The notes under the pieces were generated by a model. That model saw nothing but the letters and a program-made list of their open reading frames with translations. It was not told the origin of the DNA and did no database searches. The position numbers and the translations under genes are program-made. From Methanocaldococcus fervens AG86 (GTDB taxonomy: Archaea; AGJL01; Methanococci; Methanococcales; Methanocaldococcaceae), in NCBI RefSeq assembly GCF_000023985.1, contig NC_013156.1, positions 186,001 to 250,000 on the forward strand: a stretch of DNA of 64,000 nucleotides, given 5' to 3'. This document shows, piece by piece, positions 5,477 to 46,540 of this stretch. Within the stretch, counting starts at the first letter, position 1, and each line of letters starts with the position of its first letter.

Positions 5477-6953
<1,477 letters not shown>

Positions 6954-7185: not shown

Positions 7186-10202
<3,017 letters not shown>

Positions 10203-15356: not shown

Positions 15357-15560
15357 ATGCTTAGAGATGTTGCATTTGAATTTTTTATGATAATTGCATT
15401 AAGTATTTTTATTGGTTATATTATAGCAGAAAATACAAATAATAAGTTATGGATAGTTATCTTCCTATTATTTGGCATTTTTTGTGCATTTGGGAGATTA
15501 TTTAAAATGATTGAGGATTATGAAAAAGGTGATTCTATTGGAAAAAAAGGTAAAAAATGA
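15357..15560 (+). CDS. Small two-helix membrane protein
   Basis: A 67-aa protein with two predicted membrane helices (about residues 8-24 and 31-47) and a basic tail ending GKKGKK. It resembles AtpZ/AtpI-like small membrane proteins in layout, but I cannot assign it. Its 3' end overlaps the likely cbf5 start by 23 nt, which suggests coupling. The ribosome site is weak. Confidence 0.55.
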   Translation: MLRDVAFEFFMIIALSIFIGYIIAENTNNKLWIVIFLLFGIFCAFGRLFKMIEDYEKGDSIGKKGKK

Positions 15561-16524
15561 GGAGCTTATAGTTAAGGAAGAAGCTGAAACAAACTGGGAT
15601 TATGGTTGCAACCCTTACGAAAGAAAAATAGAGGATTTAATAAAATACGGTGTTGTCGTTATTGATAAGCCGAGAGGCCCTACATCTCATGAGGTATCAT
15701 CATGGGTTAAAAAAATCTTAAATTTGGATAAAGCTGGACATGGGGGGACATTAGACCCTAAAGTTACAGGGGTTTTGCCAGTAGCTTTAGAGAGAGCTAC
15801 AAAAACAATACCTATGTGGCACATCCCTCCTAAAGAATACATCTGCTTAATGCATCTTCATAGAGACGCTTCTGAAGAAGATATATTGAGAATTTTTAAA
15901 GAATTCACTGGAAGAATTTATCAAAGACCTCCATTAAAGGCAGCTGTTAAAAGAAGATTAAGAATTAGAAAAATTTATGAGTTAGAATTATTGGATTTGG
16001 AAGGTAGAGATGTTTTATTTAGGGTTAAATGCCAATCTGGAACTTATATAAGAAAACTTTGTGAAGACATAGGAGAGGCATTAGGGACATCTGCCCATAT
16101 GCAGGAGCTAAGAAGGGTTAAAAGTGGATGCTTTGAAGAGAAGGATGCCGTTTATCTTCAGGATTTGTTAGACGCTTATATATTTTGGAAAGAAGATGGG
16201 GATGAAGAAGAGCTGAGAAGGATCATAAAACCAATGGAATATGGATTGAGGCATTTAAAGAAGGTTGTTGTTAAAGACTCTGCTGTTGATGCTATTTGCC
16301 ATGGAGCGGATGTTTATGTTAGAGGGATAGCAAAATTAAGTAAGGGTATTGGTAAGGGAGAGATAGTTTTAATTGAGACATTAAAAGGAGAGGCAGTTGG
16401 AGTAGGAAAGGCGTTAATGAATACAAAAGAGATATTAAATTCTGATAAAGGGATTGCCGTTGATGTTGAGAGGGTTTATATGGATAGGGGAACATATCCA
16501 AGAATGTGGAAGAAGAAGAAATAA
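15538..16524 (+). CDS. cbf5: H/ACA RNA-guided pseudouridine synthase Cbf5
   Basis: Catalytic subunit of archaeal H/ACA RNPs and tRNA Psi55 synthase. The TruB-type core has the catalytic aspartate in GHGGTLDPKVTGVLPV, then GTYIRKLCEDIG, and a C-terminal PUA domain (about 245-328, VDAICHGADVYVRGI...IAVDVERVYM). I favour TTG at 15538 because GGTGA at 15528-15532 sits 5 nt upstream; ATG 15520 and GTG 15529 are possible. A guide RNA for this enzyme is predicted at 30976-31136. Confidence 0.93.
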   Translation: MEKKVKNEELIVKEEAETNWDYGCNPYERKIEDLIKYGVVVIDKPRGPTSHEVSSWVKKILNLDKAGHGGTLDPKVTGVLPVALERATKTIPMWHIPPKEYICLMHLHRDASEEDILRIFKEFTGRIYQRPPLKAAVKRRLRIRKIYELELLDLEGRDVLFRVKCQSGTYIRKLCEDIGEALGTSAHMQELRRVKSGCFEEKDAVYLQDLLDAYIFWKEDGDEEELRRIIKPMEYGLRHLKKVVVKDSAVDAICHGADVYVRGIAKLSKGIGKGEIVLIETLKGEAVGVGKALMNTKEILNSDKGIAVDVERVYMDRGTYPRMWKKKK

Positions 16525-29633: not shown

Positions 29634-30938
29634 ATGGAACTTAATATAACTGGTTTAATTCCAAAACACATGGAAAATAGGGGAAGATTAACTTTAAAAG
29701 AAAATTTGAAAATTATTGAAAATATTTTAGAGCAGAGAAAAGCTCCTGAAAACGGGATTGATGAGGAGCATATAAAATTTTTATTGAGGGTTTTATCTTT
29801 TATGGACACAGATAAAGATCCAAATGTCGTGCAAATTGGTGAAAGGGAAGCAAGAGTTTATACCAAACTGCAAAGGGAAGGAGTTTTTGATTTCTGCCAT
29901 GGAGTTGGAAGGAGCGGAAATTTAATAGACCCCCAACCAAAAGCTCCCGGAGCAAGTGTGATGTATAAACTAACCAATAAATTGTTGGAGAGTTTTTTAA
30001 AAGCTTTGGGCTTAAAGGTTAAGGCAATAGCGACACCTGTAGCTACTGGGATGAGCTTAGCCCTTTGCTTATCGGCTTCAAGGAAAAAATATGGTTCAAA
30101 TGTTGTCATATACCCATATGCAGCTCACAAAAGTCCTATAAAGGCTACATCATTTGTTAGTATGAGGATGAGATTGGTTGAGACGGTTTTAGATGGAGAT
30201 GTGGTTAAAGTTGATGTTTCGGATATTGAAGATGCCATAAGAAGAGAGATTAAAGATAACAACAATCCAGTGGTTTTAAGCACCTTAACCTTTTTCCCGC
30301 CAAGAAAGAGTGATGATGTTGAAGAGATAGCAAAGATTTGCGAAGACTATGACGTTCCCCATATAATAAATGGGGCTTATGCAATTCAAAACTTCTACTA
30401 TATCGAAAAATTAAAAAGAGCTTTAAAATATAGGGTTGATGCTGTAGTGAGCTCATCAGATAAAAACCTATTTACACCAATTGGTGGGGGAATAGTATAT
30501 ACAAAAGATGAGAGTTTTTTAAGGGAGATATCTTTAACTTATCCAGGGAGAGCTTCAGCAAATCCAATAGTAAATATCTTAATATCTCTTTTAGCAATTG
30601 GAACTAAAAACTACCTAAATTTAATGAAAGAGCAGAAAGAATGTAAAAAGTTGTTAGATGAGTTGTTGGAAGATTTAGCAAAGAAAAAAGGTGAAAGAGT
30701 TTTAAATGTAGAAAATCCAATATCTTCATGTATAACAACAAAAAAAGACCCGTTGGATGTTGCGGGTAAGCTTTACAATTTAAGGGTTACTGGACCAAGA
30801 GGGGTTAGGAAAAATGACAAATTTGGAACCTCATATTTAAAAAAGTACCCTTATGATTACATAGTTGTAAATTCAGCTATTGGAGTTAAAAAAGAGGATA
30901 TTTACAAAGTTGTTGAAAAATTGGATGAAGTTTTATAA
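29634..30938 (+). CDS. spcS: O-phosphoseryl-tRNA(Sec) selenium transferase (SepSecS)
   Basis: PLP enzyme that turns Sep-tRNA(Sec) into Sec-tRNA(Sec) with selenophosphate. The catalytic lysine is in SSSDKNLFTPIGGG. The phosphate-binding parts GVGRSGNLIDPQPKAPGAS and ATPVATGMSLALCL are intact. 434 aa, as in MJ0610. GGTGATTGA precedes the ATG. It supplies the Sec incorporated at the five UGA codons of the 44.3-52.2 kb cluster. Confidence 0.95.
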   Translation: MELNITGLIPKHMENRGRLTLKENLKIIENILEQRKAPENGIDEEHIKFLLRVLSFMDTDKDPNVVQIGEREARVYTKLQREGVFDFCHGVGRSGNLIDPQPKAPGASVMYKLTNKLLESFLKALGLKVKAIATPVATGMSLALCLSASRKKYGSNVVIYPYAAHKSPIKATSFVSMRMRLVETVLDGDVVKVDVSDIEDAIRREIKDNNNPVVLSTLTFFPPRKSDDVEEIAKICEDYDVPHIINGAYAIQNFYYIEKLKRALKYRVDAVVSSSDKNLFTPIGGGIVYTKDESFLREISLTYPGRASANPIVNILISLLAIGTKNYLNLMKEQKECKKLLDELLEDLAKKKGERVLNVENPISSCITTKKDPLDVAGKLYNLRVTGPRGVRKNDKFGTSYLKKYPYDYIVVNSAIGVKKEDIYKVVEKLDEVL

Positions 30939-30975: not shown

Positions 30976-31136
30976 ATTTGTAGGAGGTCATGCTGTATCG
31001 TGGTCATCTTCATTGAGCAAAAGCTCTCTTCCCACAACTCGCCCAGACCTCCTTTTTTGTCCCCCCAACTTCGAACCCTCTATCATCGCAACCTTTTATG
31101 GATGTGCTCCATTTGGGTCGGTTCGTTGGGGGCAGT
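30976..31136 (-). ncRNA. Two-hairpin H/ACA guide RNA
   Basis: GC-rich RNA read on the minus strand. Hairpin 1 is closed by CCCCCAA/TTGGGGG and followed directly by ACA (31060-31058). Hairpin 2 is closed by GGAGGTC/GACCTCC and followed by T-ACA (30981-30979). In each, a guide pair fits one rRNA site with exactly 14 nt to the ACA. Hairpin 1 (GAACCGA and TCGA) fits 23S U9793; hairpin 2 (GGGCGAGT and CAGC) fits 16S U6739. Hairpin 2 has GA/GA next to its upper stem, suggestive of a K-turn. A TATA-like box (31156-31164) stands about 25 nt upstream. It is transcribed between two converging protein genes. Confidence 0.85.
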
Positions 31137-31155
31137 TATATATTTATATTATTAA

Positions 31156-31164
31156 TATATAAAA
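31156..31164 (-). promoter_or_regulatory. TATA box of the H/ACA RNA gene
   Basis: TTTTATATA on the minus strand, about 20-28 nt before the first nucleotide of the guide RNA (31136) and just past the stop of the ABC ATPase gene. Confidence 0.5.
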
Positions 31165-31173
31165 GTTCTCATC

Positions 31174-31848
31174 TTATTTTTCAATTATTTCAATCAACTC
31201 TCCATCTCTCAATTTAATAATCTTTGACGCATACTTCAACAACTCCTGCTCATGTGTAACCATAACTATAGTTATTCCTTTTTCATTTAGCTCCTTTAGG
31301 ATGTTCATCACTATAGCCCCGCTTTTACTGTCTAAATTACCTGTTGGCTCATCTGCAAATATTATTCTTGGATTGTTTGCCAAAGCCCTTGCTATTGCCA
31401 CCCTTTGCTGCTGCCCTCCACTCAGTTGGTGAGGGTAGTAATTTAACCTATCTCCCAAACCAATTTTCTCTAAAAGCTCCTTCGCCCTCTTTTTTCTATA
31501 ATGCTTATCTTTTTCATCTAAAATCATTGGTAATTCAACATTTTCCAAAGCAGTTAGTGTTTTTATCAGGTGGAATTGTTGAAATATAAAACCTCCAACT
31601 TTTCTTCTAAAAATTGCCCTCTCATTTTCGCTCATCGTGCTTGTTCTTCTCCCCTTATAGTAAACTTCCCCCTTTGTTGGAACATCCAGTAAAGCCAAAA
31701 TATTTAGTAAGGTAGATTTTCCACAACCAGAAGGACCAATAATCATAACAAACTCTCCTTCTTCGATTTTCAAATTAATATTTTTTAAAGCGATAGTTTT
31801 TGCCTCTCCACTACCATAAATTTTCCATATGTTTTTAGCTTCTATCAT
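31174..31848 (-). CDS. MacB/LolD-type ABC transporter ATPase
   Basis: 224 aa nucleotide-binding domain. Walker A GPSGCGKSTLLN, Q-loop in FIFQQFHLIKTL, signature LSGGQQQRVAIARAL, Walker B IIFADEPTGNLD and the switch histidine in VMVTHEQ are complete. Almost identical in layout to MJ0796, a structural model for ABC ATPases. It starts 1 nt after the permease gene, so the two form one exporter. Confidence 0.95.
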   Translation of the reverse strand: MIEAKNIWKIYGSGEAKTIALKNINLKIEEGEFVMIIGPSGCGKSTLLNILALLDVPTKGEVYYKGRRTSTMSENERAIFRRKVGGFIFQQFHLIKTLTALENVELPMILDEKDKHYRKKRAKELLEKIGLGDRLNYYPHQLSGGQQQRVAIARALANNPRIIFADEPTGNLDSKSGAIVMNILKELNEKGITIVMVTHEQELLKYASKIIKLRDGELIEIIEK

Positions 31849-46393: not shown

Positions 46394-46412
46394 GCAGAAA
46401 AAGCCAGATGAG

Positions 46413-46444
46413 GCATCACCCGAAGGCACTTGCCAGGGTGGTGC
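46413..46444 (+). promoter_or_regulatory. SECIS element of hdrA
   Basis: Archaeal SECIS fold: lower stem GCATCACCC/GGGTGGTGC, the conserved GAA facing a single A, a 3-bp GGC/GCC helix and loop ACTT. A GGGC/GCCC hairpin (46452-46463) follows. Confidence 0.92.
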
Positions 46445-46540
46445 TGATGGGGGGCAGGCGCCCTTAGCCATTTTATTGTAACTTTCATAATCTTCACCAA
46501 ATATAAATTAAATTGCTACAATAAACTTTGAGGGATTAAT

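Follow-up and report, generated by a model that had tools for sequence, protein, structure and literature searches.

In E. coli, pseudouridines 955, 2504 and 2580 are made by RluC, a protein-only enzyme of the RluA family (PMC7600485). In the same peptidyl-transferase loop of 23S rRNA, position 2603 of Pyrococcus is modified by Cbf5-Gar1 in the absence of a guide (PMC6138745). The pseudouridines mapped here in Pyrococcus/Thermococcus, namely P. abyssi 2585, 2588 and 2603, lie at -11, -8 and +7 from the 2504 position when counted on the Thermococcales 23S rRNA, and the 2504 equivalent is absent from those listed for the region in PMC6138745. Among guide RNAs, the closest described relative of the locus reported here is HgcG/Pab40 (RF00064), which in Thermococcales consists of three consecutive hairpins: Pab40.1 is directed to 23S 2588, Pab40.2 to 1932, and the third hairpin carries a guide for H69 (PMC4652768). 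RNAs related to HgcG/Pab40 also occur in Archaeoglobaceae-like genomes. An H/ACA motif for 23S L2015 with a Pab40.3-like guide has been described from M. jannaschii in the same study, whose energy rule was set with RNAsnoop (PMC4652768).

The locus described here lies in a 64,000-nucleotide stretch of the Methanocaldococcus fervens AG86 genome (NC_013156.1, positions 186,001 to 250,000), referred to below as the window. It has two hairpins rather than three, and both their guides and their predicted targets, the equivalents of E. coli 23S 2504 and 16S 1317, differ from those of Pab40.1 and Pab40.2. The predicted position in 23S rRNA is shared with bacterial RluC, but would be reached through a guide RNA instead of a protein-only enzyme; with the Pyrococcus 2603 system the locus shares the catalytic protein and the peptidyl-transferase loop, yet that modification is guide-free and 7 nt downstream. 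The idea that Pyrococcus pseudouridine 2603 is the same site as 2504 was rejected, as the spacing on the Thermococcales 23S rRNA places it at E. coli 2511. The M. jannaschii L2015 motif comes from the same genus and is the same kind of RNA, but corresponds to a separate third hairpin at another locus, with H69 as its target.

In the account that we consider probable as a whole, a free-standing gene would yield a two-hairpin archaeal box H/ACA sRNA, with L7Ae bound at the kink-turns and Cbf5-Nop10-Gar1 at the pockets and ANA boxes. Hairpin 1 would pair through its pocket with the 23S sequence UCGA-U-G-UCGGUU(C/U) and offer U2602 to Cbf5 for conversion to pseudouridine, and the pocket of hairpin 2 would most likely act in the same manner on 16S U1263 (E. 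coli C1317). The gene would be derived from, or share an origin with, the three-hairpin HgcG/Pab40 RNA, its hairpins 1 and 2 having been retargeted.

Architecture and conservation of the locus

The sRNA island is flanked by genes for SepSecS (29634-30938, plus strand) and for the ATPase of an ABC transporter (31174-31848, minus strand), the 3' ends of which converge on it, and its G+C content is approximately 0.49-0.51 compared with approximately 0.18-0.41 in the immediate flanks. The fold of the whole RNA is better than that of shuffled sequences (z = -4.7), none of 200 shuffles being as good. Each of the two hairpins combines a pocket, a G.A kink motif and an ACA at its 3' end, and lower and upper stems covary in both. 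A two-hairpin H/ACA RNA on the minus strand, each hairpin ending in ACA, had been proposed in a sequence-only reading of the window; the structure, the stem covariation and homologues throughout the order bear this proposal out, and both ACA boxes are found in place (Table 1). We therefore regard the locus as an archaeal box H/ACA sRNA with near certainty. The TATA-box-like element TTTTATATATTA is probably the archaeal promoter of this sRNA: in most homologues an element of the TTTATATA type precedes the hairpin-1 stem by about 28 nt, at near-constant spacing, while the other upstream sequence is divergent.

Table 1. Features of the H/ACA locus, its predicted targets and associated genes (window positions unless stated otherwise).
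Feature	Position	Strand	Details
Two-hairpin box H/ACA sRNA gene	31135 to ~30976	-	sequence, fold
TATA-box-like element TTTTATATATTA	31153..31164	-	sequence
H/ACA hairpin 1	31058..31135	-	covariance model R1, 97.9 bits here
Hairpin-1 lower stem	31132-31125/31069-31062	-	
Hairpin-1 5' guide GAACCGA	31118..31124	-	7 Watson-Crick pairs with 23S UCGGUUC (9795-9801)
Hairpin-1 kink-turn	31083..31109	-	GA 31109-31108, C-stem GCA/UGC, 3-nt loop GAU, GA 31084-31083
Hairpin-1 3' guide UCGA	31071..31074	-	pairs with 23S UCGA (9789-9792)
Hairpin-1 ACA box	31060-31058	-	
Hairpin-1 predicted target, 23S U2602 = E. coli U2504	9793	+	alignment with E. coli rrlH
H/ACA hairpin 2	30979..31053	-	covariance model R2, 94.7 bits here
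Hairpin-2 lower stem	31053-31046/30989-30982	-	
Hairpin-2 5' guide GGGCGAGU	31037..31044	-	8 Watson-Crick pairs with 16S ACUCGCCC (6741-6748)
Hairpin-2 3' guide CAGC	30992..30995	-	pairs with 16S GCUG (6735-6738)
Hairpin-2 ACA box	30981-30979	-	
Hairpin-2 predicted target, 16S U1263 = E. coli C1317	6739	+	alignment with E. coli rrsH
Cbf5, H/ACA pseudouridine synthase	15553..16512	+	TIGR00425 566 bits; DKCLD, TruB_N, TruB_C_2, PUA domains
Separate third hairpin	G000:C1:434993-435137 (outside window; L108, L128)	-	HgcG 46.9 bits

Of the 36 genomes searched from the order, covariance model R1 identified hairpin 1 in 35; the one in which the R1 search did not find it, G031, is a fragmented, 89%-complete assembly. 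By blastn the locus was located in many of these genomes but missed in G003 and G010, both of which were recovered by the covariance model. Among 25 genomes from other archaeal groups, R1 gave no convincing match, and the matches in G052, L030 and L031, along with weak R2 matches in G036, G042 and G000, are regarded as chance. G020 contains an additional match to hairpin 1, a partial one, at G020:C2:874051-874107 (47.5 bits, model positions 12-69). Model R2 matches 34 of the 36 loci searched, the exceptions being loci of G015 and G028 that contain hairpin 1; G015 has another copy of the locus in which hairpin 2 is present, and none was found by the R2 search in G028.

Both sides of the pair change in 10 of the 18 base pairs of hairpin 1 and in 15 of 18 in hairpin 2, and the covariation scores are 0.340 against 0.166 in shuffled alignments for the former and 0.518 against 0.237 for the latter, in alignments fitted to the models and with shuffles that ignore relatedness; slid controls were beaten as well. 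The unfitted alignment A1 gives the same picture. In hairpin 1, the kink-turn letters GGAGC...GC and GAUGAUA are near-invariant across the alignment, and this kink-turn is a predicted L7Ae site. The M. fervens hairpin 2 possesses a tandem G.A, likewise a predicted L7Ae site, together with the loop AAU and the C-stem GAGC/GCUC; the motif is less canonical in Methanococcus-like genomes. When hairpin 1 is folded in isolation at 37 C its guide arms pair with each other, such that opening the pocket costs approximately 4.4 kcal/mol.

Predicted rRNA targets of the two hairpins

Hairpin 1 can form 7+4 Watson-Crick pairs around 23S U2602, of which the 3' guide arm contributes just 4 bp, and this site is the sole match of the fixed-register pocket scan in the rRNAs. 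A match of this quality was equalled in 5 of 2000 dinucleotide-shuffled rRNA sets in fixed register and in 3 of 600 shuffles in loose register. Among the aligned homologues, the 3' guide is conserved in 33 of 33, and in the same 33 the distance from guide to ANA box is 14 nt. The corresponding spacing in hairpin 2 is 14 nt in 29 of 34 homologues and 13 nt in the other 5; archaeal box H/ACA sRNAs have 14-16 nt between pocket and ANA box. In M. fervens, both hairpins have exactly the 14 nt between the target-side guide base and the ACA that the sequence-only reading had assigned to them, and each target occurs once in the window.

Guide and rRNA letters of hairpin 1 and its predicted target also change together: the 5' guide co-varies with 23S rRNA at two sites, E. 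coli 2510 and 2512. Nearly all genomes carry UCGAUGUCGGUU in 23S rRNA, whereas G003 and G010 carry UCGAUGUCGGCU. Opposite the UCGGCUC of these two genomes the guide reads AGCCGA, a G-for-A change that had been predicted before the covariance model found either homologue. In the genomes with UCGGUU the guide is AACCGA in all but G002, where GGCCGA faces the usual 23S sequence and pairs through wobbles, and this guide could be an intermediate. At position 2512, Methanococcaceae have U with guide A and most Methanocaldococcus have C with guide G, although the guide is mismatched here in 6 of 21 genomes (G002, G003, G010, G011, G016 and G024). When guides were randomly reassigned among genomes, none of 10,000 reassignments paired as well as each guide with its own genome's target, in a comparison that ignores the tree. 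At E. coli position 2499, no clear co-variation with the guide is seen in the full alignment.

That the hairpin is aimed at U9793 of the window, as the sequence-only reading had claimed, is thus upheld by the constant 14-nt ruler, by guide/23S co-variation and by the rarity of such matches in shuffled rRNA. The alignment with rrlH confirms that this residue is the equivalent of E. coli U2504, and the statement that U2504 is a pseudouridine made by RluC agrees with PMC7600485. Guidance of pseudouridylation at the 23S 2504 position is consequently the best reading of hairpin 1, and on these sequence comparisons we judge it very likely. A gene for Cbf5 lies within the window itself, and no RluA/RluC-family synthase gene was detected in this genome, which is in line with convergence on the bacterial 2504 site.

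For hairpin 2, the 16S site at U1263 is the top match of the pocket scan with 8+4 pairs, and was equalled in 3 of 2000 dinucleotide-shuffled rRNA sets in fixed register and 5 of 600 in loose register. Six homologues, however, read GGGCGCG in the 5' guide and therefore have one internal mismatch to 16S rRNA, and in G014, G017 and G032 (L075, L076, L077) the target position is C instead of U. In these same three genomes, CAGU or UAGU has taken the place of CAGC in the 3' guide, and the upper stem has become CCCUG/CAGGG where it was UCGUG/CACGA. Such drift fits the expected outcome of target loss; the hairpin nonetheless persists. The earlier assignment of U6739 of the window as the target is supported as well, but less securely: its extensive and rarely equalled pairing speaks for it, and the mismatches and the three genomes in which the target is C speak against it. 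We favour 16S U1263 as the likelier target, but the case is clearly weaker than that for hairpin 1.

Two other readings of hairpin 2 were weighed against these observations. The main target might instead be 23S U2652 (E. coli U2554, in the A-loop), for which a loose scan finds GGGGCUG-U-U-CGCCC, where CAGC:GCUG and GGGCG:CGCCC would form and leave three letters of the guide unpaired. The guide letter that mismatches 16S rRNA in six genomes would be unpaired in this register, and U2652 is present in rRNA of both the M. fervens type and the G014 type. Yet the pairing amounts to 5+4 with a 3-nt skip as compared with 8+4 contiguous pairs at 16S U1263, loose matches as good arose in 60 of 600 shuffles, and the drift of the 3' guide in precisely those genomes that lack the 16S target U points to the 16S site, so that we consider U2652 an unlikely main target. 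The persistence of hairpin 2 in G014, G017 and G032, where stems, ANA box and most of the 16S complementarity are kept despite the C, also raises the possibility that, at least in this lineage, the hairpin is an aid to rRNA folding or has another target, with pseudouridylation secondary. The scanned rRNA stretches of G014 contain no good alternative site. It is in just these three genomes, however, that part of the guide has drifted, as would fit a recent loss of function, and hairpin 2 may persist because hairpin 1 is carried on the same transcript; we find the folding-aid reading rather improbable. It is similarly doubtful that two things hold jointly, namely that a retargeted HgcG-type hairpin guides 2504 and that hairpin 2 still pairs with 16S h42 in a lineage whose target uridine is gone, with a possible role beyond pseudouridylation, in rRNA folding.

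A more sweeping objection would be that the locus is a conserved structured RNA or a terminator, and that its rRNA complementarity is accidental. In an AT-rich genome, many structured RNAs are indeed expected to have GC-rich stems. But this would leave the ANA ruler, the kink motifs and the co-variation of guide and target unexplained, and target matches in fixed register are rare among shuffles; we give this objection hardly any credence. Modification of 23S U2602 by way of hairpin 1, and more tentatively of 16S U1263 by way of hairpin 2, is the reading retained here.

While the class of RNA is known, the guided 2504 site is apparently new. No earlier report of it was found in a search that did not extend to Muller 2008, which reportedly covers H/ACA targets of Pyrococcus abyssi, or to Klein 2002 and Schattner 2002, which are said to be RNA screens of M. 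jannaschii. If the prediction is true, bacteria and one archaeal order arrive at pseudouridine 2504 by unrelated means, the former through a protein-only enzyme and the latter through a guide RNA, and an H/ACA hairpin has gained a new rRNA target while keeping pace with a drifting rRNA. Since the order includes genetically tractable Methanococcus species, the 2504 prediction is directly testable.

Relation to HgcG/Pab40 and the third hairpin

At gathering thresholds, no Rfam family matched at the locus. A relaxed search returned HgcG/Pab40 on the same strand across hairpins 1 and 2 with 25.7 bits (E 1.7e-5), and neither this score nor that of the separate third hairpin (Table 1) reaches the family's gathering cut-off of 77 bits. 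The same model placed a match in G082 at 382332-382604, which are the coordinates of P. abyssi Pab40 in PMC4652768. As the general H/ACA shape may explain part of the 25.7-bit score, kinship with HgcG rests on the arrangement of the hairpins and on the third hairpin.

Three consecutive hairpins are present in Methanotorris- and Methanococcus-like genomes, where the full HgcG model is matched with 31-44 bits; an arrangement of three hairpins with an H69 guide in the third occurs in several related genera. The third hairpin shares its guide, GGGUUAG/UGUUA, with Pab40.3, and probably guides modification of H69 (E. coli 1915). In a loose scan its best 23S site was H69 U2022, the equivalent of E. 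coli 1915, with a score of 10, in agreement with the Pab40.3-like guide described from M. jannaschii (PMC4652768), but the scan is a weak control because a 16S site scored higher overall (12.5) and shuffled sequences often reach scores of this size. In its arrangement, the M. fervens locus resembles two thirds of an HgcG/Pab40-type RNA that has diverged and been retargeted, a relationship absent from the sequence-only reading.

The hairpins behave as modules. In G015 (L021/L022) there are two hairpin-1 loci, one with hairpin 2 and the other with the third hairpin directly after, and G028 has a single type of locus, hairpin 1 followed by the third hairpin (loci L095 and L106 belong to this G015/G028 set). 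In Methanococcaceae and Methanotorris-like genomes, the third hairpin is found directly 3' of hairpin 2. In Methanocaldococcus the third hairpin forms a gene of its own, and in the M. fervens genome (G000) the start of the gene that follows it resembles a HAM1-type NTPase.

Two further observations concern neighbouring features. In the Thermococcales-like genome G040 (L032/L033), the 23S rRNA reads CUCGCUGUCGG, with C at the equivalent of E. coli A2503, adjoining the 2504 position, and Pab40.1 pairs across this stretch. Elsewhere in the window, a flpD RNA motif (Rfam RF01737) is present at 46404-46450 on the plus strand, its 49.9 bits being above the cut-off.
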